Positions 6,299 through 26,571 of a stretch of 48,386 nucleotides of DNA are shown in pieces. The stretch's first letter is position 1, and every line of letters begins with the position of its first letter. The stretch comes from Candidatus Uhrbacteria bacterium. Its GTDB lineage: Bacteria > Patescibacteriota > Patescibacteriia > UBA9934. Location: the NCBI GenBank assembly GCA_943358395.1, contig CALRGY010000007.1, positions 1 through 48,386 on the forward strand. The letters run 5' to 3'. The notes below the pieces were generated by a model, which did not search any database, was not told where the DNA came from, and saw only the letters and a list, made by a program, of their open reading frames with translations. The translations under genes were made by a program, and so were the position numbers.

Positions 6299-6303
6299 AC
6301 TCT

Positions 6304-7149
6304 ATGACTCCACTTCCCAACAACATCTTTACCATCACCAGCAACAATCCAGGGCCAACGGTTGCGATATTTGGCGGTGTGCACGGCAATGAACGTGCCG
6401 GCATTCTGGCGATCGATGCGTTACGAGAAACACTAGCCATTGATCGTGGCACCGTCTATTTGGTGTATGCCAATCCAAAGGCTATCACCGCCAATCAACG
6501 ATTGCTCAAGCAGAATCTGAATCGCCTGTTTCTCCGTGGCAACACAGTGGCTACGTATGAAGAAAAACGTGCCAATGAGCTGATGGATCTCCTCGACACC
6601 TGCGACGCGCTCCTCGATTTGCACTCGTACAATGACGTGCAGGAAAACGCCAATATCTTTGCTATTTGTGAGGAAAATTGCAGCAGCGTCGCTCAAGCCC
6701 TCGGCATTCCATTCCGCATCAGCGGATTTACCGCTACAGAAGCAGGCGGCAGCGATGGCTACATGTATCTCAACAACAAAGTTGGCGTTTGCGTGGAGCT
6801 AGGGTCAATCAATCTTTCAGAGAGCATGTCTCAAGAAGGAGTAGCCATTGCGCAACGCTTTTTGCAATATCTCGGCTGCATCGAGGGTAACAATATCCAA
6901 CCGACTTCAACACAGACCGCCCTGACGGCTAACATAATGTACAAAAAGCAAACCGATGATTTTCGTTTCACGCAACCGTTCAACACATTGAACCCCGTCG
7001 CCAAAGGCACAGTAATCGCCATCGACGGCCCAACGGAAATTATCGCCGACCAAAATGTTTACATTCTGTTTCCGCGCACACAATTCGCGATTGGTACTGA
7101 GGCATTCATCTTAGTCAACGCAGTCAACTCTCATCATACCCACGCATAG
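6304..7149 (+). CDS. succinylglutamate desuccinylase/aspartoacylase-family zinc carboxypeptidase-like protein
   Basis: VAIFGGVHGNERAG, NLNRLF, LLDLHSYN motifs; 5 bp after hisS. Confidence 0.88.
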   Translation: MTPLPNNIFTITSNNPGPTVAIFGGVHGNERAGILAIDALRETLAIDRGTVYLVYANPKAITANQRLLKQNLNRLFLRGNTVATYEEKRANELMDLLDTCDALLDLHSYNDVQENANIFAICEENCSSVAQALGIPFRISGFTATEAGGSDGYMYLNNKVGVCVELGSINLSESMSQEGVAIAQRFLQYLGCIEGNNIQPTSTQTALTANIMYKKQTDDFRFTQPFNTLNPVAKGTVIAIDGPTEIIADQNVYILFPRTQFAIGTEAFILVNAVNSHHTHA

Positions 7150-7999: not shown

Positions 8000-10306
8000 C
8001 TACCTCCTCGCCGTTTCATCCCCCACATAATCCTCCAGCTTCACACTCAACAACTTACTTACGCCGTCATCGCCCATTGTCACCCCATAGAGGACATCTG
8101 CTTTTTCCATCGTGGCGCGGTTGTGGGTAATGACGATGAATTGAGTGAGGGTGCGCAATTCGTTGATGATGTTTGCAAAGCGAACGGTGTTTGCTTCATC
8201 AAGTGCAGCATCGACCTCGTCGAGAACAACAAACGGCGCAGGATTCGTCGCCATAATGGCAGAAACCAATGCGATTGATGTCAGCGCGCGTTCACCGCCG
8301 CTCAAAAGATTCAACGCTTTTAATCGCTTGCCCGGTGGCGTTGCTTGAATATCGATGCCGACAACGGAATCTTTTCGCTCTTGAACACGTTTCGCGATGG
8401 ATTCAAGCGTATCGACGTTGGCGTGATGAACGAACTCGCTTGCCTCTCCCCCATTTATGGGGGAGTCGGAGGGGGCTGCAGCCTCGAGCTCCTCCTTCGT
8501 CAGTTTCACCAACGAACACCGCCCTCCCCCAAATAAAATTGCAAAATACTTCTGGAATTCTGTTGCAATCTTCTTCAGTGCAACATCTGACTGTGCCCGA
8601 ATTTGCTCATCAAGCTCGTCAATCACCTTTTCAGTAGACGCAATCGCGGAACGAAGATCGGAAACCTGCGTCGTCAAGAACGTCGATCGTTCATCTGCCT
8701 CTGCGAATTCCTTCATGACCGATGCATCAATGCCACCAATGAGTTCAAGCTGATGACGTAAACGAAGAATACGATCATGTGTTGGGCCGATGTCGACAAT
8801 GCGATCGGCTGGCGCAACGTTCATAATCAATTCAGCTCGTTCGGAGACTGCGTCTTCAATTTCCTTTTTCAAACCCTCGATCCGTGTTTCAACCCGCGCA
8901 TAATCGATAGCAACTGTATTCGCCTGCGCCTCAAGTCCAGATAATTCTTGCTGCAATCGCCGTACATCTTTCTGCACCGCAAATACTTCGGACGTTGCCG
9001 CCACCGATGCCTTTGCCTTTGCATCCATCATCTCTTCAGATCGTTTTACTAAATCTTCCGCACTCTTCACTACAGTAAGTGCATTCGCGATCGCAGCAAT
9101 CGATTCCGCGCTTTGCACAAAATCTTCAGGATTCGGTCGTGTGAGTCGGTCGCGTAGCTTCTTCGATCGCACAGAAATGCCATCGAGATCGATAATAATC
9201 GGAGCAAGATCCGCAAGACTCGTCACAGCCTTTAATCGAATGAGCAACGATTCATGCACAACAGCAACATCTTTCACTTCGGCAATAATATCCGGCAACG
9301 GCAATGGTGCCCACGTAGATTGAGACTTCACTTTTGCGAGCTCAAGCTCCCGTTCAAACGTAAAGTGCGCCCGCCGCGCATCCGCCAAACTCTGCTGCGC
9401 CTTTTTGTATTCCAGCTGCAGTGATTGCATGGAATCAGTGTCAGCTGACGATGAAGGGATCTGTGCTTTTTCAAACGCAACAAGCTCCGCATCGCGAGCA
9501 GCAAGCTCCGTTCTCTTTGCTACAACAATTGCTAACGCTGATTTCTGCCGCGTCTCGATCGCGAGCCGCTCATCAATTCCATTCCACCACATCGTTCCGT
9601 AATACGCCGCCGCAAGCACGTTCAGCTCACTCGCAACCGCCTCGCGATCGTTCAGTCGCTTCACTTGTCGTCGCAATAATGACAGTCGGGGTTCAAGCTC
9701 ATGCAACACCATTTCTACATCTGCCAAATTCTCGGCAGACTTTTGTAAGGTAAGAAGTGCATGATGACGCTTCATTTGCAATCCTCGAACACCCGTTGCG
9801 TCGTCGAAAAAAGCCTTTCGCTCTTCCGGCGTTGCCGAAAGCACGTGGTCGATCATGCCCTGACCAATCACAGAATACGATCGCTGACCCACACCCGCCT
9901 CTGCCAGAAGAAGTTGAATGTCCGAAAGGCGAACCGCTTGGCCGTTCAAGAGATATTCCGATTCGCCATCGCGATACAGCCGCCGTGTCACCACAACTTC
10001 CGCGAATGAAACATCCAGCGTGCGGTCTGCGTTATCAAACGTCAGACTCACCTCGGCAAAACCAGATCGGCCACGCCCATCAGAACCGGAAAAAATCACA
10101 TCTTGTGCTGCCTTGCCCCGCAATAATTTCATGGACTGCTCCCCCAAACACCACCGAATCGCATCGGCAATATTACTCTTCCCACTCCCATTCGGCCCCA
10201 CCACCACCGTCACCGCATTGCTCCCTGCTTTTGTCCCCGGAAACACCAACGTCGTTTTTTGCGCAAACGTCTTAAACCCCTGAATATCCATTGCTGAAAG
10301 ATACAT
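8000..10306 (-). CDS. smc: SMC-family chromosome segregation ATPase, short form
   Basis: MYLSAMDIQGFKTFAQKT..VGPNGSGKSNIADAIRWCLGEQS (Walker A); LNLLSGGERALTSIALVSAI (signature); PFVVLDEVDAALDEANTVRF (Walker B). Confidence 0.93.
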   Translation of the reverse strand: MYLSAMDIQGFKTFAQKTTLVFPGTKAGSNAVTVVVGPNGSGKSNIADAIRWCLGEQSMKLLRGKAAQDVIFSGSDGRGRSGFAEVSLTFDNADRTLDVSFAEVVVTRRLYRDGESEYLLNGQAVRLSDIQLLLAEAGVGQRSYSVIGQGMIDHVLSATPEERKAFFDDATGVRGLQMKRHHALLTLQKSAENLADVEMVLHELEPRLSLLRRQVKRLNDREAVASELNVLAAAYYGTMWWNGIDERLAIETRQKSALAIVVAKRTELAARDAELVAFEKAQIPSSSADTDSMQSLQLEYKKAQQSLADARRAHFTFERELELAKVKSQSTWAPLPLPDIIAEVKDVAVVHESLLIRLKAVTSLADLAPIIIDLDGISVRSKKLRDRLTRPNPEDFVQSAESIAAIANALTVVKSAEDLVKRSEEMMDAKAKASVAATSEVFAVQKDVRRLQQELSGLEAQANTVAIDYARVETRIEGLKKEIEDAVSERAELIMNVAPADRIVDIGPTHDRILRLRHQLELIGGIDASVMKEFAEADERSTFLTTQVSDLRSAIASTEKVIDELDEQIRAQSDVALKKIATEFQKYFAILFGGGRCSLVKLTKEELEAAAPSDSPINGGEASEFVHHANVDTLESIAKRVQERKDSVVGIDIQATPPGKRLKALNLLSGGERALTSIALVSAIMATNPAPFVVLDEVDAALDEANTVRFANIINELRTLTQFIVITHNRATMEKADVLYGVTMGDDGVSKLLSVKLEDYVGDETARR
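8446..8476 (+). repeat. palindromic element family C inside the SMC gene
   Basis: CTCCCCCATTTATGGGGGAGTCGGAGGGGGC; same 20 bp core at 45545-45564 on the minus strand. Confidence 0.85.
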
Positions 10307-11909: not shown

Positions 11910-14507
11910 TTACAAATCATCCTCATCCTCATCCTCATCCTCATTGTCTTCGTCATTTTCATCTTCATCATCCCACTCTACGCTAACAGGCGTATCAGTA
12001 AAGTGTACACATGATTTAGCATCTTGCCATTGAATAGCAAGGTCATTTTCAGGGGTATTGAGTGTTTTTGCATCAAGAAGCAATCGCTGCGTAGTGTTAG
12101 CATCGGTGTAGATGGGTAAAGCTGTTTGGATGATATCGAGGTCCGGTACCAGTGGCAGCTCATGCCCGCCATCTCCATATCCCATTCCAATATGTACCTT
12201 GGATATTATTGTTGAATTTTTTGGTGCATATGCGGCAAAAAACTTTTTATAATACTCAGTAATTTTGCGTGGGTCACGTCCAGCACACGCTTCAATGTTG
12301 TCACAAACAAGAGTATCGCTGGATGCCTCGGGATTTATATATATTAAGGATTGTGCCGCTAATTTTCCTTCATGATATAAGGCAAAAAAGCCATATCGTG
12401 GGTCAGTGTATCCTGCGATAATGCATGATTCTGATGCGCCCCCAACAGACATGCAACAGCCCGTATCTGCGCCTATAGTCGTGCCTCGTGGATCATCTTT
12501 TCTGAAAATTTCCCCACTATATCCATTCCCTAAGTCAATCTTCACGGGGCGAAAGAGGCTTTCGGTGTTATGCGATGCCTCGATGACTCTCCATATTCGA
12601 AGTGTTTTTTCTGGAGATGTACATCGAACGGTTTCTGTTAAAAATGCTAATTTACATAGGTCAACCTCCTTTGAGAGATCGAGTGATTGGCCGTATTCTG
12701 CAAATAGCCGTTTTATAGCATTTACTTTTGCCCACTGCACAAGTGCACCGGGATTATCTCTACATCCGTCAGCCAGTGCGGCATCACGATTTTCCCACGC
12801 TAAAATAAGTGTTTCTGCCGGTGTAGCAACGTAATTTATTAGCCATTTTTGCGCCACTGAATTGTAAGATTTTTTACGTTTTTTTGTTTCTTCTTCGTCA
12901 TCTTGTTGCGGCTCTTCTGGGGTTACAAAATGACTTAAAAAGTATGATGCGTCATGCATACTGTTGCTCACGCCGTTTTGTAAGCGACTGAACATGATTT
13001 TTCCGACTATTTTTGGATCCCAACCTTCTGGAACTTTAAATGCATGGTACCCAAGCCAGTGCTCCATTTGACCACTTGTAATGCCCTTTTCGTAAAAGCT
13101 CTTTTTTACTGTTTCATGACGATCGGGTGGAACGTTTTTCAGCATTACTGCCAGCGTCGCTTCCCGTTCTTTGGATGAGCCAATAATGCCTTGTTGTGCA
13201 AATTCTTTTGTAAATTCGACCTGTTCTTCTTCGGGAAGCGCATGTATGCGTTTCTTCAACTCTTTTTGGCGTTCGGGTGTCATTTGTTCTACATCCATTA
13301 CCCAAGCATTTACTGACTTGATGAGCCAAGGAAATTGCAATGCAGCACTTTTGGCACCAGCTGGATCTTGTGGAAAGCTTTCGTTAAAATTTAAATCCAG
13401 AGGACTATGAGCCTGTAGGAAGGCTCTTAGACGCTCTACTGTATAGAACTCTGAGTTTTCATAATTCTCAAGTTCGACTATTTGAGCACCGAGACGTAGG
13501 GCGACTTCATCGTTAACCTCTGGTAATTGAAGAATATGTCTTAAAGCAAAGTAGCATTTCTGTGATTGTATTGATTCAAGATTCCACTGTAGAAGCAGAG
13601 CATTATTAATGAATAGAGGATTTATCCCTGAATTCAATGGATGCAGTTTTTCAAGAAAAGTTTGATATTCAGATGAATTCATTTGAGACACTAAGACATC
13701 TTTGATCGCATGCACGAGTGGACTTGTGGAATGAGGATGTGTAGATTCTGTTATCCATTGAATGAGTTCACTTTCTCTAGAATTACGCAATGTCGTTATG
13801 CATTCTGTTGCTTGTTTGTAGGATAGCTGAAGATAATTATTGTTTGTTATTAATAATGCGCATTCTTTTTGCTCGAATAAATATTCCCGCACCTCATCTT
13901 TTATTTCTTCTATGGCTTTTTCTGCGAATGGAAAGTATTCATAATCGTCTCCTCTTTCATGTCTTGCAAATAAGAAATCAATGACAAGCTGTTTTTGCTG
14001 GGACGATTCAGATCGATGGAATGCTTGGCGAAATACAGCGCCAGCACTTGAGATGTCACCTTTTTCTAATCGTTTTTCCAAATAGTTAAATATCTCTTCG
14101 TGCAATTTTGTTCCCTCCACGAGCGACCAGGGAGGGTTTCGCATCGTTTCTTGAGTATTCGACTGAATATAATCAGTGTTTGTAGATTTTATAGCGGTAC
14201 TGATGTTTGCAATAACTTCACCAAGAATTATTTCTCGTTCATCGAGCGGAAATGCATGAAGCCTCTTTGAGATAAGGGAGAATACTTGTCCCATTTCGAT
14301 TGTACGCTCTTCTTCTCCGGGTCCGTAACGATGTATTTTACTTAGGGCTTCGGTGTATATTTTTAATACTTCTTCTCCGGCTTGACGTATGCTTTCATTG
14401 AAATCTTCGCGTGATTCTTCTATTGCAGCGCGCGCTTCTTCGCCGCGTGACCTAGAATTTATAAACTCTTCCTTCATATTTGTATTTATTTCGGGTAACT
14501 TTATCAC
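11910..14507 (-). CDS. large uncharacterized protein with acidic C-terminal tail
   Basis: 865 aa; C-terminal motif FRKDDPRGTTIGADTGCCMSVGGASESCIIAGYTDPRYGFFALYHEGKLAAQSLIYIN; tail DDEDENDEDNEDEDEDEDDL. Confidence 0.85.
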   Translation of the reverse strand: MIKLPEINTNMKEEFINSRSRGEEARAAIEESREDFNESIRQAGEEVLKIYTEALSKIHRYGPGEEERTIEMGQVFSLISKRLHAFPLDEREIILGEVIANISTAIKSTNTDYIQSNTQETMRNPPWSLVEGTKLHEEIFNYLEKRLEKGDISSAGAVFRQAFHRSESSQQKQLVIDFLFARHERGDDYEYFPFAEKAIEEIKDEVREYLFEQKECALLITNNNYLQLSYKQATECITTLRNSRESELIQWITESTHPHSTSPLVHAIKDVLVSQMNSSEYQTFLEKLHPLNSGINPLFINNALLLQWNLESIQSQKCYFALRHILQLPEVNDEVALRLGAQIVELENYENSEFYTVERLRAFLQAHSPLDLNFNESFPQDPAGAKSAALQFPWLIKSVNAWVMDVEQMTPERQKELKKRIHALPEEEQVEFTKEFAQQGIIGSSKEREATLAVMLKNVPPDRHETVKKSFYEKGITSGQMEHWLGYHAFKVPEGWDPKIVGKIMFSRLQNGVSNSMHDASYFLSHFVTPEEPQQDDEEETKKRKKSYNSVAQKWLINYVATPAETLILAWENRDAALADGCRDNPGALVQWAKVNAIKRLFAEYGQSLDLSKEVDLCKLAFLTETVRCTSPEKTLRIWRVIEASHNTESLFRPVKIDLGNGYSGEIFRKDDPRGTTIGADTGCCMSVGGASESCIIAGYTDPRYGFFALYHEGKLAAQSLIYINPEASSDTLVCDNIEACAGRDPRKITEYYKKFFAAYAPKNSTIISKVHIGMGYGDGGHELPLVPDLDIIQTALPIYTDANTTQRLLLDAKTLNTPENDLAIQWQDAKSCVHFTDTPVSVEWDDEDENDEDNEDEDEDEDDL

Positions 14508-14538: not shown

Positions 14539-15654
14539 CTACGCCCTCGAAACCACCCGCACCGTCCCTGCAGTTGCATCAACCTCCACTGTATCACCAT
14601 CCTGAATCGATTCCAACGCCCCCTTCACATTCGTCACGCACGGCTTTCCTAGCTCTCTGCACACAATAGCGGCGTGGCTCAGAATGCCGCCCCAGAGGGT
14701 GACGACTCCCCCGGCTTTCATCATCAGCGGAAGAAAGTCTGGTGTGGTCATGTCGGTGACGAGAATATCGCCGGTTTCGATATCGGCACCAGCAACATCG
14801 GCGGCAAGAATGACACGAGCACGGCCAGTCACCAATCCTCGAGAACCAATCTGACCGCGCAAAACCCTCGATGATCCTTCGTCTTCATTCATCAGGATCT
14901 GGCAGCGCTCATCGCCGTACGTCGCACCCAACAATCGATTCCAATCAATGAACCAAATGCCAAATTCCGTCGACGTTGCCGTTTCAAAATATCCGCACAA
15001 ATATTCTCCAAAAAATGTCGCACCAAATTCAGTAGTAAGCTTTTCGCGAATAGCAGGATCAGAAACCCGCAGCATCTCCATCACTTCCCGCATATGCGCC
15101 TCTGCCAATGGGCGATCCAGGCTCAAGTTCCAATGCACTCCGTCCCACGAAAACGTCATCGGCTCCATGCCTTCGGTGTAAAAGCCTTGGGTTAATTGGT
15201 TATGCGGCCCCGCAAGCACTTGCCCAAACGCCCCATGCTGGTTCACAACGAAAATCGTACTCCAGGTATTATCGCCCGGGTGCGGCATAAAATCCGCTTT
15301 GTATTTCTCCGGATCAATATCTTGCAATGCAAACCATTCCATCGATTCAGCGATCGATGCCCCTCGTGTTCGTAACTTCGGCAACGCAGGATCAATGGGA
15401 ATCAATCGCAACGCACAAAGCTCATGCCCTCGTGTTTCCAAAAAATCAACGAATTCTGGCGATGAATTCGCTAATGCACTTGCCAAAAATTGTATCGACC
15501 GATTAAACGGCAAACCAATATACGTGTTCAAAACCGCGAGCCGCTCCAGTTTCTCATTATCCTCTTTCCGATGTGCCTCCGAATTCACTAACCCCATCCG
15601 CTGAAACCATTCGGTGAGGGAAATTTGGGTCTTGTAGAGGGTTGGGAGATCCAT
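14539..15654 (-). CDS. stand-alone PEP-utilizer phosphohistidine swivel-domain protein
   Basis: C-term GDILVTDMTTPDFLPLMMKAGGVVTLWGGILSHAAIVCRELGKPCVTNVKGALESIQDGDTVEVDATAGTVRVV; no ATP-grasp motif. Confidence 0.9.
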   Translation of the reverse strand: MDLPTLYKTQISLTEWFQRMGLVNSEAHRKEDNEKLERLAVLNTYIGLPFNRSIQFLASALANSSPEFVDFLETRGHELCALRLIPIDPALPKLRTRGASIAESMEWFALQDIDPEKYKADFMPHPGDNTWSTIFVVNQHGAFGQVLAGPHNQLTQGFYTEGMEPMTFSWDGVHWNLSLDRPLAEAHMREVMEMLRVSDPAIREKLTTEFGATFFGEYLCGYFETATSTEFGIWFIDWNRLLGATYGDERCQILMNEDEGSSRVLRGQIGSRGLVTGRARVILAADVAGADIETGDILVTDMTTPDFLPLMMKAGGVVTLWGGILSHAAIVCRELGKPCVTNVKGALESIQDGDTVEVDATAGTVRVVSRA

Positions 15655-15661
15655 AGTATTT

Positions 15662-17164
15662 TTATGCGCGCTTTACAATCCTCACCACTCCCTTCTCCGC
15701 ATCGACTTCAACAAAATCCCCATCTTTCAAGACTTCAGTCGCGATCTTCGTTCCGATAATACACGGCTTTCGTAATTCACGAGACATGATTGCTGCGTGG
15801 CACAATATACCTCCTTCATTCGTTACAATCGCAGAAGCAATGCGCATGGCGGGAACAAAATCTGGCGACGTCATTGCAGTGACCAAAATTTCACCAGGAA
15901 GAAGCTCTTTGGCATTCCGTCGATCAGGGATGACACGCACAATGCCGCGAACCATTCCAGGAAAAGCAATCTGCCCTTTTAACTCCGAAACCTGATGCTG
16001 GTCTTCATTCGGAATCACAAGTGCCTTCAAGGCATCAATCTGCGATCCATCAACAAGGAACGATGTATGAGGAGCAATAACATACCCGTACCCATTCTTT
16101 GCACGATCAAGGAGAACATCACGATCAACAATAAGCACATTCGCTTTCAGAGAAGCCACGATTTCGTAATACGTCATGTTCAATGCCGCATCCATAGGCA
16201 AAGAAAGCGCTTGAGAAACGTAACGGAATATTGGACGAAGTGCACCGTTCACCACCATCATGTGATCAATATTTTCCGTGCGTAAATACATAAACGCACG
16301 AACAAATGCAATGCGATCCTTCACGTCGAGTGGCAATACTGCTGCCTTGAGTATTGCATCTGCCCGCACCATTTCCGCATCAGCACAATCCAATTGATGC
16401 TTCTGCGTCTCATATTCATTGGGATCGGCGAGCGCATTCAAGCGACCGCGATAATACTCAAGATCAAAAGGCTCGTCGTCGATATTCTGCAACGAAAGAA
16501 CACAATATTTCTTCCAATGACGGCGCAATGCATGCTCACGATTCCCTCCTGGTTGCATATGGAGCTGGAGCAAATCTCGCTGTTCCTGACTTGAAAGCGG
16601 AAGCCGTGTGGGACGATACACGTCCGCCAAAAATGCCTCTACGCGCATCGCGTCATCTTTCCAATATCGCAAAACCTCTGCATCAATCTTCTCTTTAATT
16701 CTTTCGGCAGCAAACCATAAGAATCCTATTTCAAAAAGCGCAATCCAATATTCGCAATGCGCCTCAAGACCCTTGCATACCACCTCAACATTCAATCCGC
16801 GTTTTGGCAGCATGCGAGCCAATTTCTTTGCTGCGCCAACCATTCCGTATAATTCCTTTGTAAGCTTCCGTGCAAACCGCTTGTCGTCATTCATGCTCTT
16901 CCACCACAAGTCCGCACCACGAATATCCAACGTATCAGGCAGATACACGCCCTTCAACGGCTCTCGTCCCGCCTCAAAAAACACAAAATCAATATCCCAT
17001 CGCCGCTTCACCGCCTGCACGGCATAGCGATACCCGTCCATAAAAAACACCACTCGTCTTCGCAAAAACTTTCTTGATAACAGCTCAGAACGCAATAACG
17101 GCTCGTCCTCTGCAAGAAGCTGGGGATCAATATCAAGAAGCGGATTCGTGAATTCCATACTCAA
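15662..17164 (-). CDS. stand-alone PEP-utilizer phosphohistidine swivel-domain protein with long N-terminal region
   Basis: C-term GEILVTAMTSPDFVPAMRIASAIVTNEGGILCHAAIMSRELRKPCIIGTKIATEVLKDGDFVEVDAEKGVVRIV. Confidence 0.9.
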   Translation of the reverse strand: MSMEFTNPLLDIDPQLLAEDEPLLRSELLSRKFLRRRVVFFMDGYRYAVQAVKRRWDIDFVFFEAGREPLKGVYLPDTLDIRGADLWWKSMNDDKRFARKLTKELYGMVGAAKKLARMLPKRGLNVEVVCKGLEAHCEYWIALFEIGFLWFAAERIKEKIDAEVLRYWKDDAMRVEAFLADVYRPTRLPLSSQEQRDLLQLHMQPGGNREHALRRHWKKYCVLSLQNIDDEPFDLEYYRGRLNALADPNEYETQKHQLDCADAEMVRADAILKAAVLPLDVKDRIAFVRAFMYLRTENIDHMMVVNGALRPIFRYVSQALSLPMDAALNMTYYEIVASLKANVLIVDRDVLLDRAKNGYGYVIAPHTSFLVDGSQIDALKALVIPNEDQHQVSELKGQIAFPGMVRGIVRVIPDRRNAKELLPGEILVTAMTSPDFVPAMRIASAIVTNEGGILCHAAIMSRELRKPCIIGTKIATEVLKDGDFVEVDAEKGVVRIVKRA

Positions 17165-18007
17165 TTACGCAATGGCATCTGCTTTCATTTCCATTCCACG
17201 ATACTCCCCCACAATACCGTCATCTTCTAATCGAATCTTCACCATTTCTGTTTCGTTCAAAATTCCGGACTGCAATCCACGATATGTCTCTTCCGAAACC
17301 ACACCATTTCCATGTAAATATGCCAAAAGCGCATCAATCTCAAAGCTATGTCCAACCGCACCCACAATAATTGGACGATCCGGAAAGCTTTTCTTTGCAA
17401 AGGTTCGCAATCGCTCCAATGCCTTTAAAAGATTCTGCGCAACTCCCGTTGGGTTTGGCCCAACTTGTTCCCCATCTATTTTTCCTTCTTCACGAAACCA
17501 TTTGCATTCCGCCTCAAACAATGACGTGCCGCCTTCAAGTAAATGATTTGTGTACGCTGTCGGTTTTCCATCCTTCTGAAACCATCCCTTGTCCATCATT
17601 TCCGTAAGACGAAGGGGAAGATCAATAACAACTTTCGCATTCGGATCTCCATCGGCACGATCAACGACACGCTGTAACGTTCCCGAAAATCCAACATCCT
17701 TCGATGAAGCAGAAAGCTCACTGCGTGGCACCACAATCACATCTTCACGATCAGCAAACGCCGCTTTCAACGCATCGCCATACACTCGCAGCGTGGATCG
17801 CGTTCGTACTTCTGGAGATACTGGTGATTGAAAAATAATCGTACCCGGCGCAGCATTTTCAATAATCTCCGCAATGTCTTTCGCCCGCTCTTTTGCGAGC
17901 TCAACACCAGCATCCGTAATTCCTTGATATTCCACGCTCTGCGGCACATCCTTCGATGGCTTCAAGGAATGACGAGTGATGTATCCATCTGGCTGCTCGA
18001 TTGACAT
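17165..18007 (-). CDS. histidine phosphatase superfamily-like protein
   Basis: GYITRHSLKP...GITDAGVELAKERAKDIAEII...FQSPVSPEVRTRST...VGAVGHSFEIDALL: RHx and late GH motifs. Confidence 0.75.
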   Translation of the reverse strand: MSIEQPDGYITRHSLKPSKDVPQSVEYQGITDAGVELAKERAKDIAEIIENAAPGTIIFQSPVSPEVRTRSTLRVYGDALKAAFADREDVIVVPRSELSASSKDVGFSGTLQRVVDRADGDPNAKVVIDLPLRLTEMMDKGWFQKDGKPTAYTNHLLEGGTSLFEAECKWFREEGKIDGEQVGPNPTGVAQNLLKALERLRTFAKKSFPDRPIIVGAVGHSFEIDALLAYLHGNGVVSEETYRGLQSGILNETEMVKIRLEDDGIVGEYRGMEMKADAIA

Positions 18008-18017
18008 AAAAAATATA

Positions 18018-19418
18018 TTAAAGAATCTTCACTGTTCCATTATCTGCGTTCACCTCAATGATATCACCAGTTTGAATCATCGAACTTCCATGGCGCGTGG
18101 CGGTAATGCACGGAATCTGCAGCTCGCGAGACACGATGGCGGCGTGCGATGTAATCCCACCTTCATCCGTCACAATCGCCGCAGCCTTCTTCATAGCAAG
18201 AACGAAGACTGGCGTTGTATGATGCGTGACAAGAATTTCACCGTGTTCGAGTTCACTCAGCTGATCCGCAGAATGAATCACGCGCGCTTTTCCCTGGACG
18301 ATTCCTCGATACGCGATCATTCCCTTGATTTCTTTGTGTGCAACATTCAAAACCGCAGCAAGATCGGCAGCAATCCGATCATCGGCATCTTTTCCTGTAA
18401 GAATTTCAACAGTTGCATTGTGCGCATACACCACATGAGTCGATCGTTCAGCAACATTCAATGGCAACGATCCATCATACAAAAATGCCAGAATCTCTTC
18501 GTTCAGCAAATTCAATACACACGACAACGACACATTCATTCTTCGCGCCAAATCTTGATAGAACGGTGCAATCAAACAGAAAACAATGCGCGTCAGGTCG
18601 ATTCTCGCATCCCGAAGATGCGTATACAGATGGATAATCTCTATGGTATTTCGCAATGAATCATCGGGACGAATCTCACGAAGAACTTCATTGTATCTGC
18701 GCGATCGTTCCGCGAAATCCGTGCGCATTTTCGCGAGCTCTGCTTCTGGATTCTCAAGATCGGCACGCTGTTTTGTAAAATCATCCATCGACCATATTTT
18801 GTCACCAATCGTGTACACTGGAAGCCAAAAGAAACGTTTCGCATGATCAACGAGTCGTGAATCATCACCAGACGCCGCAATGTCGAGCAAATCCATCCGC
18901 TGTGCCGTCATGGCATTTGTTGTCGTGGGAGTTCCAATAACTTGAAGCCATTCTTCAGCTTTTACAGAGTCGATCATTTCAAGACTCGCCTGAAGTTTTG
19001 CCGCCGTTACACCATCAATCGCTGAAGGAGTAAATGCAAATAATCCCAGCCCCTGTAACCGCGCACAGTATCGCACAAACCAATCCGCAAGCGTTGTCGT
19101 ATGAAGATCAGCGATGTTTGCATCAAAAATCTCCTGACCAAGCACCGTCATATCCGCATTCAACGACTCAAATGACTGTTCAATCGTCGCCTTGTTCATG
19201 CCAAACGTCACTCGCTCGACACCAACCAAGAATTCCATCCATTCATCCTCAAAAAAATAATAATCATATTTCCCTTCACTGGGAATAATAATCGCACTAT
19301 TCATGCGCACCGAGTGATCCTCCGGCAATCCAACGGTAAAAAAGTTCAGAAAGAAGTTCGAAATGCGCTGCACCGAATGCGGTCGTGAAAGAATTTTTGT
19401 CCAGGCGTGTGGGTACAT
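18018..19418 (-). CDS. stand-alone PEP-utilizer phosphohistidine swivel-domain protein
   Basis: C-term GEILVTHHTTPVFVLAMKKAAAIVTDEGGITSHAAIVSRELQIPCITATRHGSSMIQTGDIIEVNADNGTVKIL. Confidence 0.9.
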   Translation of the reverse strand: MYPHAWTKILSRPHSVQRISNFFLNFFTVGLPEDHSVRMNSAIIIPSEGKYDYYFFEDEWMEFLVGVERVTFGMNKATIEQSFESLNADMTVLGQEIFDANIADLHTTTLADWFVRYCARLQGLGLFAFTPSAIDGVTAAKLQASLEMIDSVKAEEWLQVIGTPTTTNAMTAQRMDLLDIAASGDDSRLVDHAKRFFWLPVYTIGDKIWSMDDFTKQRADLENPEAELAKMRTDFAERSRRYNEVLREIRPDDSLRNTIEIIHLYTHLRDARIDLTRIVFCLIAPFYQDLARRMNVSLSCVLNLLNEEILAFLYDGSLPLNVAERSTHVVYAHNATVEILTGKDADDRIAADLAAVLNVAHKEIKGMIAYRGIVQGKARVIHSADQLSELEHGEILVTHHTTPVFVLAMKKAAAIVTDEGGITSHAAIVSRELQIPCITATRHGSSMIQTGDIIEVNADNGTVKIL

Positions 19419-19480: not shown

Positions 19481-20491
19481 CTATATCCGTTTCACAATAG
19501 TCACCACCCCCTTCTCCGCATCCACCTCCACCACATCCCCATCTTTCAGCACCTTCGTTGCAATCTTGGTTCCAATGATGCAGGGCACGCCGAGTTCGCG
19601 GGCAATGATTGCGGCGTGGCAGGTGATTCCGCCTTCATCAGTGACGAATGCAATGGCACGCTTCATGGCGGAGATGTAATTCGGTGTCGTCATCGATGCA
19701 ACAAGAACTTCTCCGGGAACAAAGGCTTCGCAGTCCTTTGATGAACGAAGGACGCGAACAGTCCCATGAGCAACTCCACCATTCGCAATTTGACCGGTAA
19801 TCTCACAACAATCGGTGCTGACGTCTTGCGGCAATACAATGTCAAAACGCTTTTCACATTCTTGCACCGTCATTCCAGGATATAAAACTCCTTGAAAAAA
19901 TACCCAACCCGTTTTGCGTTTCTCGATCTCTGAAGGCGATGGAAGCACGCCTATAATTTCTTCTGCGGTAAGCATCGTTCTCCAATCTGCGTGTTCTCCC
20001 AACATTTCCGCGACAATATCTTGCAGAAAAGCATCCGCAGCCCACGCAACCGTATCAGTCGCCGCACGCGTCGCAACTGCCATGTCCACAAGCTCCGGCG
20101 CAATATCCTGACCCTCTTCACCAAGAACAACGGCGATTGTAAAATTCGGCATAGAGTCAACAATGCGCCGAAGCAGCTCAACGAAACCAATCTCCCGCTT
20201 CTCATCAACAATTGCCCGAAGTTCGCGGCACTGCTGCATGTACCAATCGCATCGTTCAGCAAAAAGCGATGGACGATCCTTGAAATACTGAATCAACCGC
20301 CGCGCATCTTCAGAAGAATCTTCCGAATACCATGCGCTCACACCAACATCGGGTTCATACACAAACATTGGCGCATACGAAGTATTCCCACACGTCACCT
20401 GCGCCAAGCCATCCCGCTCGCCTCGATACCAATACTGCACACACAACACAGAAATATCCCGCGTATACACTTTTATGTACGTCGTGCTCAT
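19481..20491 (-). CDS. stand-alone PEP-utilizer phosphohistidine swivel-domain protein
   Basis: C-term GEVLVASMTTPNYISAMKRAIAFVTDEGGITCHAAIIARELGVPCIIGTKIATKVLKDGDVVEVDAEKGVVTIV; overlaps next gene by 4 nt. Confidence 0.9.
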   Translation of the reverse strand: MSTTYIKVYTRDISVLCVQYWYRGERDGLAQVTCGNTSYAPMFVYEPDVGVSAWYSEDSSEDARRLIQYFKDRPSLFAERCDWYMQQCRELRAIVDEKREIGFVELLRRIVDSMPNFTIAVVLGEEGQDIAPELVDMAVATRAATDTVAWAADAFLQDIVAEMLGEHADWRTMLTAEEIIGVLPSPSEIEKRKTGWVFFQGVLYPGMTVQECEKRFDIVLPQDVSTDCCEITGQIANGGVAHGTVRVLRSSKDCEAFVPGEVLVASMTTPNYISAMKRAIAFVTDEGGITCHAAIIARELGVPCIIGTKIATKVLKDGDVVEVDAEKGVVTIVKRI

Positions 20492-21360
20492 AAGGTCGTA
20501 ACGGATTTACCCCGTCTCTCTATCTCAAGAGAATCATCGGCATTCACGCGAACATGTACCGCTTCGCAATTCTGTATACCTTCTTCTCCGAAATACTCCT
20601 TAAACGCTTTAGCAAGATAATTTTCATGTCCAAAAGCAAGGATTTTAATATGCTTACCACCAAATCCCTCTTTCGCTTTTCTTGCACCAAACCGCGCAAG
20701 GCGAAGAAGTTGCTGAAATTGCGTCTCAAACAATTCATGCGCAGTACTTTGCTCGTTCGGCAATAATCCGCGTTCCCGCAAAATATCAGAATAATGGGCG
20801 AAATTTGCTCCCCAATTTCCCTTATCGTCCTGCAGAACAACTTGCCGAGCCTCTTCCCATGCCGATCGAACAGCAGCATCAACACCACTCCAGTTTATCG
20901 GCGCAAGTTGCGTTGGCGGACTGAAAAGCGAACCCCAAAGCGAACTTTCCGGCTTAAGGGACAGAGATTCTACAACGCGGACTTCCTCCTCGCTCATTCT
21001 TTCCGCCAATGGATTACGGTGGTGCTCTGGAGCGATAATGACGAATCCTTTTCCCTTTGCGATATTCTTATACATTTGCGCAGTTTCTAGTGCTCGCGCC
21101 TGATCACTTGAGGCAAAGAAAAGCGCATCTGCAGCTGGATCCATTTCTCCAAAAAGCTTCTCTGCCTCATGTTGTGCCAACTCAACACCAGCCTCGGTAA
21201 GGTCAGGGAATACTTGCTCTTTTGGATCAATGGGCCGATCTGGATTCTCCGATCCAACGATTGCACTACCACTTCTGTACGCTGCCTTTGAGTGGCGAAT
21301 GAATCTGATATCACCTATCGGTTCACCGTGTGGGACATGTGATATTGCTTCAGGCTTCAT
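20488..21360 (-). CDS. histidine phosphatase superfamily-like protein
   Basis: DIRFIRHSKAAYRSGSA...PDLTEAGVELAQHEAEKLFGEM...LFFASSDQARALETAQMY...ILAFGHENYLAKAF. Confidence 0.82.
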   Translation of the reverse strand: MKPEAISHVPHGEPIGDIRFIRHSKAAYRSGSAIVGSENPDRPIDPKEQVFPDLTEAGVELAQHEAEKLFGEMDPAADALFFASSDQARALETAQMYKNIAKGKGFVIIAPEHHRNPLAERMSEEEVRVVESLSLKPESSLWGSLFSPPTQLAPINWSGVDAAVRSAWEEARQVVLQDDKGNWGANFAHYSDILRERGLLPNEQSTAHELFETQFQQLLRLARFGARKAKEGFGGKHIKILAFGHENYLAKAFKEYFGEEGIQNCEAVHVRVNADDSLEIERRGKSVTTL

Positions 21361-21368
21361 ATAACAAT

Positions 21369-23390
21369 CTACTTCTTAAAAATTCGCACCACACCATTAT
21401 CAGCATCAACTTCAAGCTCATCCCCTGTTGCGATATTCAAGATGACATCCTTATCCGTTCCAATAATACAGGGAATGCCCAATTCTCGGGAGACGATCGC
21501 GGCATGAGACAGCATTCCACCTTGATTCGTAATAATCGCTGCCGCCTTTTTGCACGCCTGGATAATATCCGGCGACGTCGTTTCTGCAACCAAAATTTCT
21601 CCTTTTTCCACTTGCGCAACAGCGGCAGTAATTTTATCAAAATCATCCCAATCGGGAATAAGAACGCGTGCCTTCCCTCGAACTTTCCCTCTATTCGCGA
21701 TTGTTCCTTTGATTGTGTCAGAAATGTCCTGATACAAAGAAAAGAACTCATGAACGAGTCTCAGCGATTCATCGCCGAAAAGCGTTATATCCTGTGATGC
21801 AAAAAAGACGGAGCGGTTTACGATTTCATCTTTATCAACGGTCTTTCCGTTTTTCATCAATTCGAGAACCTCGGAAACACGGTAGTTCGACAATAGTGAT
21901 TCTGGAACATTCGTTTGACGGGAAAGTTTCTTGAGTAAGCCCCGAACATAACCGTTTTCCTCAAAAATAAGCTTATTGAGATGCAAGCGTCCTTCAAGTT
22001 TCAGCGCATCAAATTCCTGCACCGATATAACCATGGATTCTGGCTCAAGAAGATCGGTGTAGAAAAATTCAGTTTTGGAGTAAAAAGAGAAGTGTTCAGA
22101 TGCAAGTCGAAAAAACTTTTCAGCTTCCTCCATGAACACTTCTTCTTGAGTAAGAACAGATTGAAAAAAAGATGTAGACGATGCAATGTACTGCTCAAAG
22201 CCCACCTTGTACGCATCGTACTTCGCCTGTGTTGTATAAAGTTCCTTGCCTTCTTGTAAGGTGTGTACCAACGATTCTTTTGGAAGGAACGACATCCACG
22301 ATGACTCTGTATTCCGCATGCTCAAAACACCAAGCACGTGATAATAGTGAAGAAAAATATCGCTCAGAATGAACAGGAGAGACTTACCCGCAAACATGCG
22401 GACATAGTCGCTCGGATCATAATCCATCTTTTCTACGACAGCATCCTGCATATGTAACGTCGTAATCGGTCTGCTTTGCAAGATGTAAAACTCCCCCGAT
22501 TCCATGCCCCATTCAATGTCGCAGGGGAAGCTGTAATGTTTTTCGATGAGGATACAAAGATTACCGATGGTTTCGATCTGTTTCGTATTCAGCTTTGGTG
22601 CCTCGCGTTTATCCGACGGCACATCGACGGTGACATTTCCGCGCTCTCCACGAACCAACATCGTTTCTTGTTCCGACGTGTAGTTCTCGATGATGCTATT
22701 CGTTTTCTTACTGACGATATACGAATCCGGCGTAACAATTCCGCCGACGATGAATTCGCCGAGGCCCCAACACGCTTCGATGATCATCTGATCATGATCC
22801 TTGGTGACGGGATGAACCGTAAACGCGATACCCGCAACATCGGATTGAATCATCTTTTGAATGACGACTGCAACAGAAACATGCGTGTCTCGCATTCCCT
22901 TTTCCATGCGGTACACGATTGCTCGCGGCGTAAAAAGCGATGCCCAACATTTTTTGACGTTGCCGAGAAGATTCTTCTCCGTTGTGTTCAAATAACTCTC
23001 AAGCTCTCCCGCCCAACTCGCCGTCGACGAATCTTCGGCCGTCGCGGATGATCGAACAGCGACGAATTCGGAATCGAGTGCAGCAAATGCGATGAGAATC
23101 TCCTCTTCAAGATCTTTCGGGAATCGTGCATCGTGAATCAGGTCATGCAACACCCGGGAAGCTCGCTCTACGCTCGCAACATCCTCATAATTCACTTTGT
23201 TCAACTGCGCCTCAACCTCCGCCTTCAATCCCGTCTCTTCCAAAAACCGATCAAACGCATCCCGTAGCACGACAAATCCCGGCGGCACCGGAATCCCCGC
23301 TTGAGTCATTTCTCCCAGCGAAGCGCCTTTTCCACCAGCAAGATGAACGTCGTTTTTGCTTAGCTCCTGGAATGGTTTTACGAATGGCAT
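21369..23390 (-). CDS. PEP synthase/rifampin-phosphotransferase-like dikinase: N-terminal ATP-grasp plus C-terminal phosphohistidine swivel domain, no PEP-barrel
   Basis: LAGGKGASLGEMTQAGIPVPPGFVV, FVAVRSSATAEDSSTASWAGELESYLN, CDIEWGMESGEFYILQSRPITT, and C-term GGMLSHAAIVSRELGIPCIIGTDKDVILNIATGDELEVDADNGVVRIF. Confidence 0.93.
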   Translation of the reverse strand: MPFVKPFQELSKNDVHLAGGKGASLGEMTQAGIPVPPGFVVLRDAFDRFLEETGLKAEVEAQLNKVNYEDVASVERASRVLHDLIHDARFPKDLEEEILIAFAALDSEFVAVRSSATAEDSSTASWAGELESYLNTTEKNLLGNVKKCWASLFTPRAIVYRMEKGMRDTHVSVAVVIQKMIQSDVAGIAFTVHPVTKDHDQMIIEACWGLGEFIVGGIVTPDSYIVSKKTNSIIENYTSEQETMLVRGERGNVTVDVPSDKREAPKLNTKQIETIGNLCILIEKHYSFPCDIEWGMESGEFYILQSRPITTLHMQDAVVEKMDYDPSDYVRMFAGKSLLFILSDIFLHYYHVLGVLSMRNTESSWMSFLPKESLVHTLQEGKELYTTQAKYDAYKVGFEQYIASSTSFFQSVLTQEEVFMEEAEKFFRLASEHFSFYSKTEFFYTDLLEPESMVISVQEFDALKLEGRLHLNKLIFEENGYVRGLLKKLSRQTNVPESLLSNYRVSEVLELMKNGKTVDKDEIVNRSVFFASQDITLFGDESLRLVHEFFSLYQDISDTIKGTIANRGKVRGKARVLIPDWDDFDKITAAVAQVEKGEILVAETTSPDIIQACKKAAAIITNQGGMLSHAAIVSRELGIPCIIGTDKDVILNIATGDELEVDADNGVVRIFKK

Positions 23391-23401
23391 AGCATCAACC
23401 G

Positions 23402-25072
23402 TTAAAGAATTCTTACCGTGGCGTGGTTTGCGCGAACCTCAACCGTTGCGCCGTCAGGAATGCGTGTTGTGGCATTCTTTGTGCCGATAATACACGGCTT
23501 GCCCAATTCTCGCGAGACAATTGCTGCATGACACGTAATCCCGCCTTCGTTCGTCACAATGCCCGCTGCCTTCTTCATGAGCGGCAAGAATTCCGGTCGC
23601 GTCATGCCCGTCACCAAAATCTCCCCTTCATTGAAACGATCAAACTGCGAAACATCCAAAATAATCCGTGCAACACCTTTGGCATATCCCTGGCATGCCG
23701 TTTGACCATTTACCACACTCGTTGACGTGTCAGCACCAAGCCGATCATTATATTCCCGAAGCAATGAGCTTGCTTGCTCACCGCAAATCACCTCAAACCG
23801 ATTCCCCGCAAATGTCATCATAATCCCCTCTTCACGACGTCTCTTAAGCTCTTCAAGAGAAACCAAACCCTTCAGCACATTCGGAACTTCGTCTGGCACT
23901 AAATACTGCACATACATCTTTGGAATCCCCGTCAGTGCCTCAATGCGCATAAGAATTGCGTCAAAAACATGAATGCTCATTAAATTCACCTTTTTCCGAT
24001 ATTCGCGCCAAATCGTTAAACGCTCAAAAAACCATAACGGATTTTCTTTCACCTTTTTCTTACGAACGATATTCTTGATCGCCAGTTCATGATCTTTCTC
24101 GTAGTTCTTCAGATCGCGATATTCCTTCTTCCACGCATCGGAATTCTGTACATGACCCCAAATCTCTTCAACGATATTTTCGTTGGTCATATGCTTGACC
24201 ATTGCGTAATTCGACTCCGTGTAATCAAAATCACGGCGATACTGCTGGACCGCTTCATCGGTTTTCACGTACTGCGTAAGCTTTTCCTTGGTCCAAGTAC
24301 GCGAATAAATATCATCGATAATGTCGAAAAGCCTTCGTTTACGTTCCCCAGAAAACGTCAGCTCCGATGGCGTGGTCAGGATTTGGACGTCATCTGCAGA
24401 TAATGCGTATTCTGCGCAAACTTTCTTGATAATCTCTTGATCAACCCCAACATCAAATGCATCAATCCAAATGCTTTGATTCCAAAAGTTGCGGCACGCC
24501 TGTAAGACGTGTTGCAAAAAGATGCACAGTGTCTCCTGTGAAAACTCTGCAATATCTCCTTCAAATGTTTTTCGGTACAACCCATCAATAATCACCCCAG
24601 CAGCGGAAAATTCTGAATAGAGTTCCTGAAACGCCGATCGCGATGAAAGTCTCGCGTAACATGCGTGTGCGGTGGTACGCATTGCCGTCGCATCCCAATA
24701 TGCGAAAATATAACTTCCCTTGGAATAAATATGCAGAGCACCGAGGGCAAAAGCCTCGTTCCCAGGGATACAATATGTTGCCAAGGCTGATGACGGCGGA
24801 AACATCGTAAACGGCACACATTCACCCTCTTGTTTGTATAGCTCATGTTTTTCAACGGCTATGGCCTGTTGCGGAATAGAGCGATCCAGAATATCCGCAA
24901 TCATGAGTCCATACACAGAACACAACTTCTCGATGGTCTCGAATTTAATGCCGTTCACCTTCCCAAGTGCCAAAGACTGAATAGTATTGCGATTAATCCC
25001 CGTTTCTCGAGCAATATCTGACAAATTCTTCCCCGTTTTCTCAACAATCTTGTCGATTCGGATACGAATCAT
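23402..25072 (-). CDS. XRE/Cro-CI-type HTH regulator fused to a C-terminal phosphohistidine swivel domain
   Basis: N-term MIRIRIDKIVEKTGKNLSDIARETGINRNTIQSLALGKVNGIKFETIEKLCSVYGLMIADIL; C-term GEILVTGMTRPEFLPLMKKAAGIVTNEGGITCHAAIVSRELGKPCIIGTKNATTRIPDGATVEVRANHATVRIL. Confidence 0.9.
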   Translation of the reverse strand: MIRIRIDKIVEKTGKNLSDIARETGINRNTIQSLALGKVNGIKFETIEKLCSVYGLMIADILDRSIPQQAIAVEKHELYKQEGECVPFTMFPPSSALATYCIPGNEAFALGALHIYSKGSYIFAYWDATAMRTTAHACYARLSSRSAFQELYSEFSAAGVIIDGLYRKTFEGDIAEFSQETLCIFLQHVLQACRNFWNQSIWIDAFDVGVDQEIIKKVCAEYALSADDVQILTTPSELTFSGERKRRLFDIIDDIYSRTWTKEKLTQYVKTDEAVQQYRRDFDYTESNYAMVKHMTNENIVEEIWGHVQNSDAWKKEYRDLKNYEKDHELAIKNIVRKKKVKENPLWFFERLTIWREYRKKVNLMSIHVFDAILMRIEALTGIPKMYVQYLVPDEVPNVLKGLVSLEELKRRREEGIMMTFAGNRFEVICGEQASSLLREYNDRLGADTSTSVVNGQTACQGYAKGVARIILDVSQFDRFNEGEILVTGMTRPEFLPLMKKAAGIVTNEGGITCHAAIVSRELGKPCIIGTKNATTRIPDGATVEVRANHATVRIL

Positions 25073-25078
25073 ATTTTA

Positions 25079-25141
25079 TACTAGTTAATATCTGAATAAA
25101 TATAGCCACAAACTACATTTATGTCAAAATACTGACTAGTA
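25079..25141. promoter_or_regulatory. two inverted TACTAGT-type candidate operators flanking the promoter
   Basis: ACTAGT at 25080-25085 and 25135-25140; oriented extended forms TATACTAGTTAA and TGTACTAGTCAG, centres 55 bp apart. Confidence 0.55.
25099..25127 (-). promoter_or_regulatory. promoter of the swivel-domain cluster
   Basis: Minus strand TTGACA (25127-25122), exactly 17 nt, TATATT (25104-25099). Confidence 0.8.
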
Positions 25142-25152
25142 CAGGCATCATC

Positions 25153-26571
25153 CTACATCCATCGCATCTCTCCCCTCACCCATTCCTCAATCTCCTCCCC
25201 CGTCTTTCCCTCATCATCCCGCAACCTGTCTGCTTCGCGGATCATCTCCCCCATCTTCGGCCCTGGTTCGATTCCGAGCGCGACGAGTTCGGCGCCGGTG
25301 ATAGCATGCGGAGCTGGACCGACGAGTACATTGAGCTTCGCGGCGCGATCGAGAAGCCATGGGCGCTCTGGATATTCCCGCGTTTCGCCGTGACGATACT
25401 GTCCTCTGCCAAAGTAATCTGCCTCGGCGACCAAAAGCAATTCGTTCATCGTAGCTGGTGCAATGCGAGCCGCGAGCTTACGAATTGCCCCATCGGTAAT
25501 CGATTGATGTTTCTCGATCTCTTGCAGGTAGTAATTCGTTGGTTTTAAGTGATCTTTCACGATGCCGACAATCTTTTCGACGACAATCGATGACACACCA
25601 ACGACTTTCAAAAATGATCGTGCTGGCGCCTCCCCCGCCTCTTCGTGCCCTATCGACCGAATCTTCCCGTCGATCACCCGTGTACAAAGCGCCTTCCCAA
25701 GATCGTGTACTAATGCACCAAGCATAATCGTAAACGCCGATTCTTCATCGAGGTTCTCACGACGGAGAATCGCCGCAGCTTCATCAACAACCATCAACGT
25801 ATGAATCCACACATCACCCTCGGGATGCCATTCGGGATTTTGCGGGGTCGATTTCAGAATCGGAAGCTCTGGATGCAACACATCGAACACTCCAAGATCG
25901 AATCCCAGTTGAAGCCCGATGGATGGCTTTTCGGCGAGTACCAACAGCTTACGCCATTCATCACGCAACCGTTCCGGTGAAAGCTCTTTAAGGCTCGGAA
26001 CAGATGCCTTGATGATATTCATCGATTCTGAATCAACCACGAGATCGAATCGCGCCACGAATTGCAGTGCCCGCAAAACGCGCAAGGGATCGTCGCCGAA
26101 GAGAACAGGATCAACAACGCGCAAAATCCTCTTCTCGAGATCAGCCTTTCCATTCGTTGGATCGATCATCTCATCCGTCAACGGATCCATCATGATGGCG
26201 TTCATCGTAAAATCTCTACGACGTGCCGCATCATTCGGACTCATCGATGGATCAACGTGAATATCGAAACCTTTGTGTCCATTGGCGATCTTTGAATCGG
26301 AACGGGGGATACCGAGGTCGATTTCGAGACCGCCTCCGATTCTGAGCTTCAAAATCCCAAATGCCTTCCCCACTTCAATAACCTCACCGAATTCTGCTGC
26401 AACCGATCGTAACGCTTCGGGATCAAGCCCGTATACTTCAATATCAAAATCCTTTGGTTCAATATCCAACAACATGTCTCGCACACATCCACCCACCAAA
26501 AGCGCACGTCCACCGGCATCGCGGATGGATTCGGCGAGTACGATAATGATTTGAGGTATATCTTTTTTCAT
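25153..26571 (-). CDS. cca: CCA-adding enzyme/poly(A) polymerase family nucleotidyltransferase with HD domain
   Basis: LLVGGCVRDMLLDIEPKDFDIEVYG; RRDFTMNAIMMDPLTDEMIDPTNGKADLEKRILR; LVHDLGKALCT. Confidence 0.92.
   Translation of the reverse strand: MKKDIPQIIIVLAESIRDAGGRALLVGGCVRDMLLDIEPKDFDIEVYGLDPEALRSVAAEFGEVIEVGKAFGILKLRIGGGLEIDLGIPRSDSKIANGHKGFDIHVDPSMSPNDAARRRDFTMNAIMMDPLTDEMIDPTNGKADLEKRILRVVDPVLFGDDPLRVLRALQFVARFDLVVDSESMNIIKASVPSLKELSPERLRDEWRKLLVLAEKPSIGLQLGFDLGVFDVLHPELPILKSTPQNPEWHPEGDVWIHTLMVVDEAAAILRRENLDEESAFTIMLGALVHDLGKALCTRVIDGKIRSIGHEEAGEAPARSFLKVVGVSSIVVEKIVGIVKDHLKPTNYYLQEIEKHQSITDGAIRKLAARIAPATMNELLLVAEADYFGRGQYRHGETREYPERPWLLDRAAKLNVLVGPAPHAITGAELVALGIEPGPKMGEMIREADRLRDDEGKTGEEIEEWVRGEMRWM

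Follow-up and report, generated by a model that had tools for sequence, protein, structure and literature searches.

Can a bacterial transcription regulator read the phosphorylation state of a dikinase-type swivel domain carried on the same polypeptide? The question is raised by a gene (23402..25072, minus strand) in a 48,386-nt stretch of a Candidatus Uhrbacteria genome, the whole of which we refer to as the window. The first-pass annotation had proposed that this gene joins an N-terminal XRE/Cro-type helix-turn-helix (HTH) domain, through about 370 residues, to a C-terminal phosphohistidine swivel with an intact histidine, and that swivel phosphorylation controls DNA binding. The gene is a single uninterrupted ORF with an ATG start, encoding 556 aa, and both ends are as described. 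Residues 5-63 (24884..25060, minus strand) match the Cro/C1-type profile HTH_26 (Pfam PF13443; E 2.4e-10, 41 bits against a cut-off of 22), and in an AlphaFold model made from a 6-row alignment (pLDDT 80, pTM 0.71; HTH blocks 62-82) they adopt the five-helix Cro/CI arrangement (helices at 6-13, 17-24, 28-35, 44-54 and 58-61), with the recognition helix at about residues 28-35. Foldseek aligned this end with the XRE DNA-binding domains of SaPI2 Stl (1.4 Å over 63 columns) and SinR (1.5 Å over 59). Profile score and modelled fold, recognition helix included, both place it among the XRE/Cro-C1 domains, and the structure prediction leaves the DNA-binding claim standing. The swivel domain occupies residues 451-556 (23405..23722, minus strand), within which residues 480-548 match PF00391 (PEP-utilizers; E 3.3e-24, 84.7 bits against a cut-off of 23.1). 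Its motif TNEGGITCHAAIVSREL is intact, in the context GGITCHAAIVSREL, and the catalytic histidine of the GGxxxH loop is residue 515 (GGITCHAAIV; codon at 23528..23530, minus strand).

The residues between these ends had been taken as a mere connecting stretch, and here the description had to be revised: matches to family profiles and an alignment to RPH rule out a linker, and residues 72-446 (23735..24859, minus strand) form a conserved domain related to the rifampin-binding domain of RPH and the substrate domain of HpeH-type dikinases, as judged by profile A4 and Foldseek. A profile of the HTH and middle regions, built from three genomes, found matches in 70 of the 381 genomes of the class, mostly midway along the ORFs of proteins of about 500 aa that lack an HTH and often lie several in tandem; full-length HTH proteins and a few HTH-only ones were also among the matches. 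An iterated search, in which iteration inflates the E-values, gathered 110 of 119 collected swivel proteins into one middle-domain family, and by sequence similarity the middle of the regulator belongs to this Patescibacteria-wide family of domain-plus-swivel proteins. Profile A4, made from 44 middle-plus-swivel proteins, aligned continuously with RPH chains, starting in the middle domain and running to the C-terminus (E 1.3e-36 to 1.8e-36), and all six RPH structures headed the Foldseek list for the regulator model (E 1e-10 to 1e-12). In this fold comparison the TM-score by query was at most 0.48 and the rmsd large, so the domain arrangement may differ or the model may be imprecise there. Since a profile of the middle alone matched none of the PDB chains, the evidence for the link to RPH is the joint profile plus the predicted fold, which together identify an RPH-like substrate domain ahead of the swivel, as in dikinase carriers. 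The regulator has the sequence hallmarks of an XRE HTH protein, a swivel protein and a dikinase carrier subunit.

The fusion, or a form of it, is present in eight genomes, that of the window and seven others (G044, G412, G784, G327, G375, G306 and G023). Five of the seven have the swivel region in the same ORF; the G784 protein is cut by a contig end, and the protein of G023 (Ca. Uhrbacteria RIFCSPHIGHO2_01_FULL_63_20) is 429 aa long and has HTH and middle domain with the swivel missing. The G044 relative (contig JAGVPA010000051.1) is 48-49% identical over the whole protein. It is extremely improbable that misassembly or read-through joined two separate genes, given that a single ORF holds both ends in six genomes, that the proteins form a single clade and that operator and gene order are conserved; the sharing of the fusion by independent genomes rules out the assembly error that the first-pass annotation would have suspected had the architecture been unique to this contig. 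On a tree of the middle-plus-swivel region made without the HTH, by a quick search and with long branches elsewhere, the seven analysed HTH proteins form one branch (SH-aLRT 99), and the HTH was therefore probably acquired once in the family, as far as this sequence tree can tell. The closest HTH-less relative is a protein of Parcubacteria bacterium C7867-004. Genome contigs scanned by pattern with the regulator protein as sole query gave zero matches. An alignment-based scan of contigs returned those of G044 and G023, one HTH-less relative and HTH-only matches. Viral contigs matched in the HTH only, and phages and plasmids mostly in the swivel, with some Rhodococcus PEP-utilizing enzymes extending into the middle domain (query 254-541).

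As the annotation had it, the regulator is the first gene of its cluster, an operon of eight minus-strand genes that runs from 25072 to 14539 with neighbours overlapping or at most 62 nt apart. Eleven nucleotides downstream of the regulator begins the gene of an ATP-grasp (PPDK_N) and swivel protein of 673 aa, the presumed kinase (21369..23390, minus strand; Pfam E 2.7e-101). It is followed, on the same strand, by a histidine-phosphatase-like protein with an RHS motif (20488..21360), a candidate phosphatase (His_Phos_1 E 0.041, below cut-off; motifs by eye); a 336-aa swivel protein whose N-terminal part is not recognisably of the shared middle-domain family (19481..20491); a 466-aa middle-domain and swivel protein (18018..19418); a phosphatase-like protein with a TRHS motif (17165..18007), named from motif and context, with no Pfam match; a 500-aa middle-domain and swivel protein (15662..17164); and a 371-aa swivel protein (14539..15654) whose ortholog adjoins the ATP-grasp gene in the same-genus genomes G001-G004. 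Both in-window phosphatase assignments are weak sequence matches. An 865-aa ORF with no Pfam match lies directly 3' of the cluster (11910-14507).

The window genome (G000; 912 kb, 97.6% complete) encodes eight swivel domains, and the presumed kinase is its single PPDK_N match genome-wide. HPr is absent from all ten genomes searched and the PEP-utilizers_C domain from the window genome, which therefore has no ordinary PEP synthase, PPDK or EI. If every swivel is charged in this way, a single kinase must serve them all. As in dikinase systems, the ATP-grasp protein is encoded separately and close to the carrier. In the window genome it also bears a swivel, whereas same-genus relatives (L029, L031-L034) encode ATP-grasp and swivel in separate genes. 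The regulator gene is missing from the same-genus genomes G001-G004, in which the ATP-grasp gene and a single swivel ortholog persist near the same neighbours. In genomes of the same genus, and on a further contig of the window genome, TrmB-family regulators adjoin swivel or ATP-grasp genes (L029:4426-5211, L033:4699-5520, L035:4057-4848 and 5696-6475, and L028:5450-6229 and 8628-9365), perhaps in place of the HTH-swivel protein. Among the HTH-bearing relatives the HTH gene is usually first of its operon. The operon is shared with a PPDK_N-swivel gene in G044 and G412 also, the kinase is encoded elsewhere in G327 and G375, and there is none in G023. A histidine-phosphatase-type gene is divergent upstream of the HTH gene in G044, G327 and G375 (Pfam match above cut-off) and in G412 and G784 (below cut-off).

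The upstream sequences of the HTH-gene relatives have in common a palindrome, TGACTAGT-NN-ACTAGTCA. When 13 whole genomes were scanned for it with up to two mismatches, it occurred once each in G044, G412, G327 and G023 and twice in G375, in every case no more than about 110 nt upstream of the HTH gene. It was not found in G001-G004, G010, G013, G000 or G306; a reversed control pattern occurred at one place across the 13 genomes. Since the motif was derived from some of the same sites, finding it at them is circular evidence. No such circularity attaches to its absence from the rest of the genomes, nor to the perfect copy found upstream in G784, which was examined after the scan. Six relatives have the full palindrome and the window has half-sites. 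The predicted operator half-site ACTAGTCA lies at 25133..25140 (minus strand), where the full palindrome lies in relatives and inside the region 25072-25153 that the first-pass annotation had singled out for binding assays. It is the one copy in the 48-kb window; shuffling predicts 0.53, so the count alone is not significant. Its position relative to the predicted promoter (TTGACA-17-TATATT, 11/12; 25099..25127, minus strand) is, by inspection, similar to that in G044, G412, G327, G375 and G784: 5 nt 5' of the promoter in the window and 5-7 nt in relatives. By inspection the centre of this upstream operator-like site is near -50, a position as compatible with activation, or with control of a divergent pair in both directions, as with repression. 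A second ACTAGT core lies between the -10 element and the start codon (25080..25085, unstranded), and G327 and G375 have second palindromes near the start codon; a second site there would fit repression. The HTH-swivel gene of G306 (upstream of L082:7890-9377) is preceded by a different perfect palindrome, TTTTTGTAATGAAATCATTACAAAAA, instead of the shared one.

Where a lineage has the kinase in the operon, no domain of the regulator is as well conserved as the swivel, and none as poorly as the middle. The window swivel is 85% identical to that of G044 and 71% to that of G412, whereas identities are 58% and 48% for the HTH and only 37-38% and 32% for the middle domain; in the same comparison, identity between the swivels of the neighbouring PPDK_N proteins is 46-49%. 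Fourfold-degenerate sites are saturated (24-29%, window against G044 and G412), so the conservation of the swivel reflects purifying selection, and recent recombination or transfer as its source is ruled out. A signature near the C-terminus, EVRANH, marks the HTH clade: VRANH is carried by six of six HTH-swivel proteins, whereas arginine stands there in only 2 of 120 other swivels, which mostly have VDxx or VNxx. EVRANH also occurs in two HTH-less swivel proteins (L085:3039-4472 and L097:4639-6063) that are each other's sisters and distant from the HTH clade. The full TNEGGITCHAAIV motif is present in the HTH-swivel proteins of the window, G044 and G412, all three with the kinase in the operon, and that of G306 retains GGMLCHAAI. 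In G375 the histidine is present and the GG of the loop is gone, and in G327 both GG and catalytic histidine are gone; G023, whose HTH protein has no swivel, is without PPDK_N. The catalytic histidine is kept in 119 of the 120 non-HTH swivels examined, and the sole exception is a neighbour of the G023 HTH gene. At L044:9049-11332 of G023 the swivel-less HTH-plus-middle protein is followed by this His-replaced swivel protein, a natural loss-of-phosphorylation case.

The computational evidence includes a fusion of single origin, an operator-like palindrome, a cognate kinase gene in the operon and a swivel under strong selection, and we propose the following mechanism. An XRE-type DNA-binding domain joined to the carrier subunit (substrate domain and swivel) of a two-component small-molecule dikinase would bind TGACTAGT-NN-ACTAGTCA beside its own promoter and control the dikinase operon, together with the divergent phosphatase gene where one is present. 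The ATP-grasp protein of the same operon would phosphorylate His515, as HpeI and PpsB do for HpeH and PpsA, and the phosphorylated swivel would shift its docking position and thereby alter the DNA-binding state. Transcription would then track the charge of the operon's swivel proteins, a charge that their substrates, and the histidine phosphatases encoded nearby, may draw off. Both the binding of the HTH at the palindrome and the phosphorylation of His515 by the ATP-grasp protein are proposed steps, as are the effect of phosphorylation on DNA binding and its sign. That the protein is a local transcription regulator of the dikinase operon whose DNA binding is tuned by phosphorylation of His515 is a proposition to which we give about even chances. 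In its favour are the purifying selection on the swivel and the fact that kinase-less G023 has a swivel-less HTH protein; the decay of the swivel where the kinase is absent (G023) or encoded elsewhere (G327, G375) also fits. The mere half-sites of the window and the lack of the shared palindrome in G306 count against it.

The same losses lend something to other readings. HTH and operator are kept in G327, G375 and G023 despite loss of the canonical histidine loop or the swivel, so phosphorylation can be neither obligatory nor the only signal in every member; and since HTH, middle domain and operator outlast swivel decay, a second input is likely or able to take over, probably a ligand of the middle domain. 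This domain is kept in every member, and may sense a ligand directly. Taken to its limit, the RPH-like middle would bind the dikinase substrate and alone control DNA binding, with the swivel an inheritance, whether or not it carries phosphate; ROK repressors follow a comparable logic. Three of the seven analysed members, with degenerate or missing swivels, and the kinship of the middle with a substrate-binding domain speak for this possibility, which we nevertheless consider rather unlikely, because where the kinase is in the operon conservation is far higher in the swivel than in any other domain and lowest in the middle, and swivel-less G023 lacks the kinase as well. High conservation of the swivel could also stem from work as a carrier or enzyme and not from signalling. 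The protein might be a trigger enzyme like PutA or BirA in kind, a working dikinase subunit that phosphorylates a small molecule and, when idle, represses the operon it belongs to. The window member has the substrate-type domain, His515 and a cognate ATP-grasp partner that such an enzyme would use, and its HTH-less middle-plus-swivel sisters are presumed enzymes. However, orthologs differ widely in the middle domain, and regulation outlives catalysis where G327 has lost the histidine and G023 the swivel with the HTH kept, which makes this account improbable. In the window species the acting input may be phosphorylation, a ligand or catalytic turnover.

Phospho-control of the kind we favour can be set against several known systems. 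In two-component small-molecule dikinases, namely HpeHI of Rhodococcus, CreHI and phenylphosphate synthase PpsAB, the HpeH-type carrier consists of an RPH-like substrate domain and a swivel, and the ATP-grasp domain is on a separate protein (PMC12167813). The window operon shares with them the separate ATP-grasp protein and a carrier with RPH-like domain, C-terminal His swivel and T/SxxGGxxxH motif, but an N-terminal HTH, with an operator to match, is added to its carrier, and the genome has one ATP-grasp gene for eight swivels. Middle and swivel of the regulator align with RPH over most of their length, in profile and fold (PMC4844700; PDB 5hv1, 5fbs), whereas RPH is an HTH-less single chain with its own ATP-grasp that inactivates an antibiotic (PMC4844700); identity is about 16%. 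With the PRD regulators of the PTS (PMC8560693), the analogy drawn in the first-pass annotation, the regulator has in common that it is a DNA-binding protein whose activity would follow histidine phosphorylation by the system it controls. Only this outline of the logic carries over: Pfam finds no PRD domain, HPr and EI are missing, the sensory part is of dikinase substrate type, it is the swivel that would be phosphorylated, and the phosphate would come from ATP through the ATP-grasp protein. Membership in the PTS/PRD class is ruled out by the lack of PRD (Pfam), HPr (ten genomes) and PEP-utilizers_C (G000).

Repressors of the ROK family combine an HTH with a sugar-kinase fold, and their catalytic residues may decay while regulation stays. 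Here too an HTH is joined to a kinase-derived domain, although the kinase fold of ROK proteins is unrelated and the domain here is a phosphocarrier with its own kinase partner. VadK (Rv1127c) is likewise a PPDK-derived His-swivel protein with a regulatory instead of a metabolic role (PMC13400623); no DNA-binding domain is reported for it, and it interacts with methylcitrate-cycle enzymes without transcriptional regulation of the cycle (PMC13400623). Small phosphatases of the His_Phos_1 type, as is SixA (PMC6282199, PMC7948535), lie divergent from or inside the HTH-swivel operons; SixA is a phosphohistidine phosphatase, and the operon phosphatases, which match the superfamily only, are candidates for such an activity.

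Since the fusion is conserved in relatives, most of them with a matching DNA site before their own operon, the joining of an HTH to a dikinase carrier looks like a real, undescribed class of gene regulator; we found no description of an HTH-swivel regulator in the literature open without subscription. Most transcription factors known to read histidine phosphorylation belong to two-component systems or the PTS. If the proposed mechanism is true, it adds a third route to them, from a small-molecule dikinase and in bacteria with small genomes. The role of phosphorylation is directly testable, since the operator is defined, a cognate kinase is encoded alongside and some members have naturally lost the phosphate site. 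A wider picture, a PTS-free and ATP-driven phosphohistidine network in Patescibacteria, in which one ATP-grasp kinase charges tandem swivels, phosphatases discharge them and the HTH-swivel protein reads the charge and sets transcription, is offered tentatively, as a possibility. The regulator offers a handle on the large swivel clusters of Patescibacteria. These have up to nine tandem middle-domain and swivel genes (L080, L085-L097; for example L094:4181-14621 and L087:4171-17223) and often include separate ATP-grasp, phosphatase-like and HAD-like genes. In one such cluster a Fic-domain protein is encoded (L086:8921-9961).
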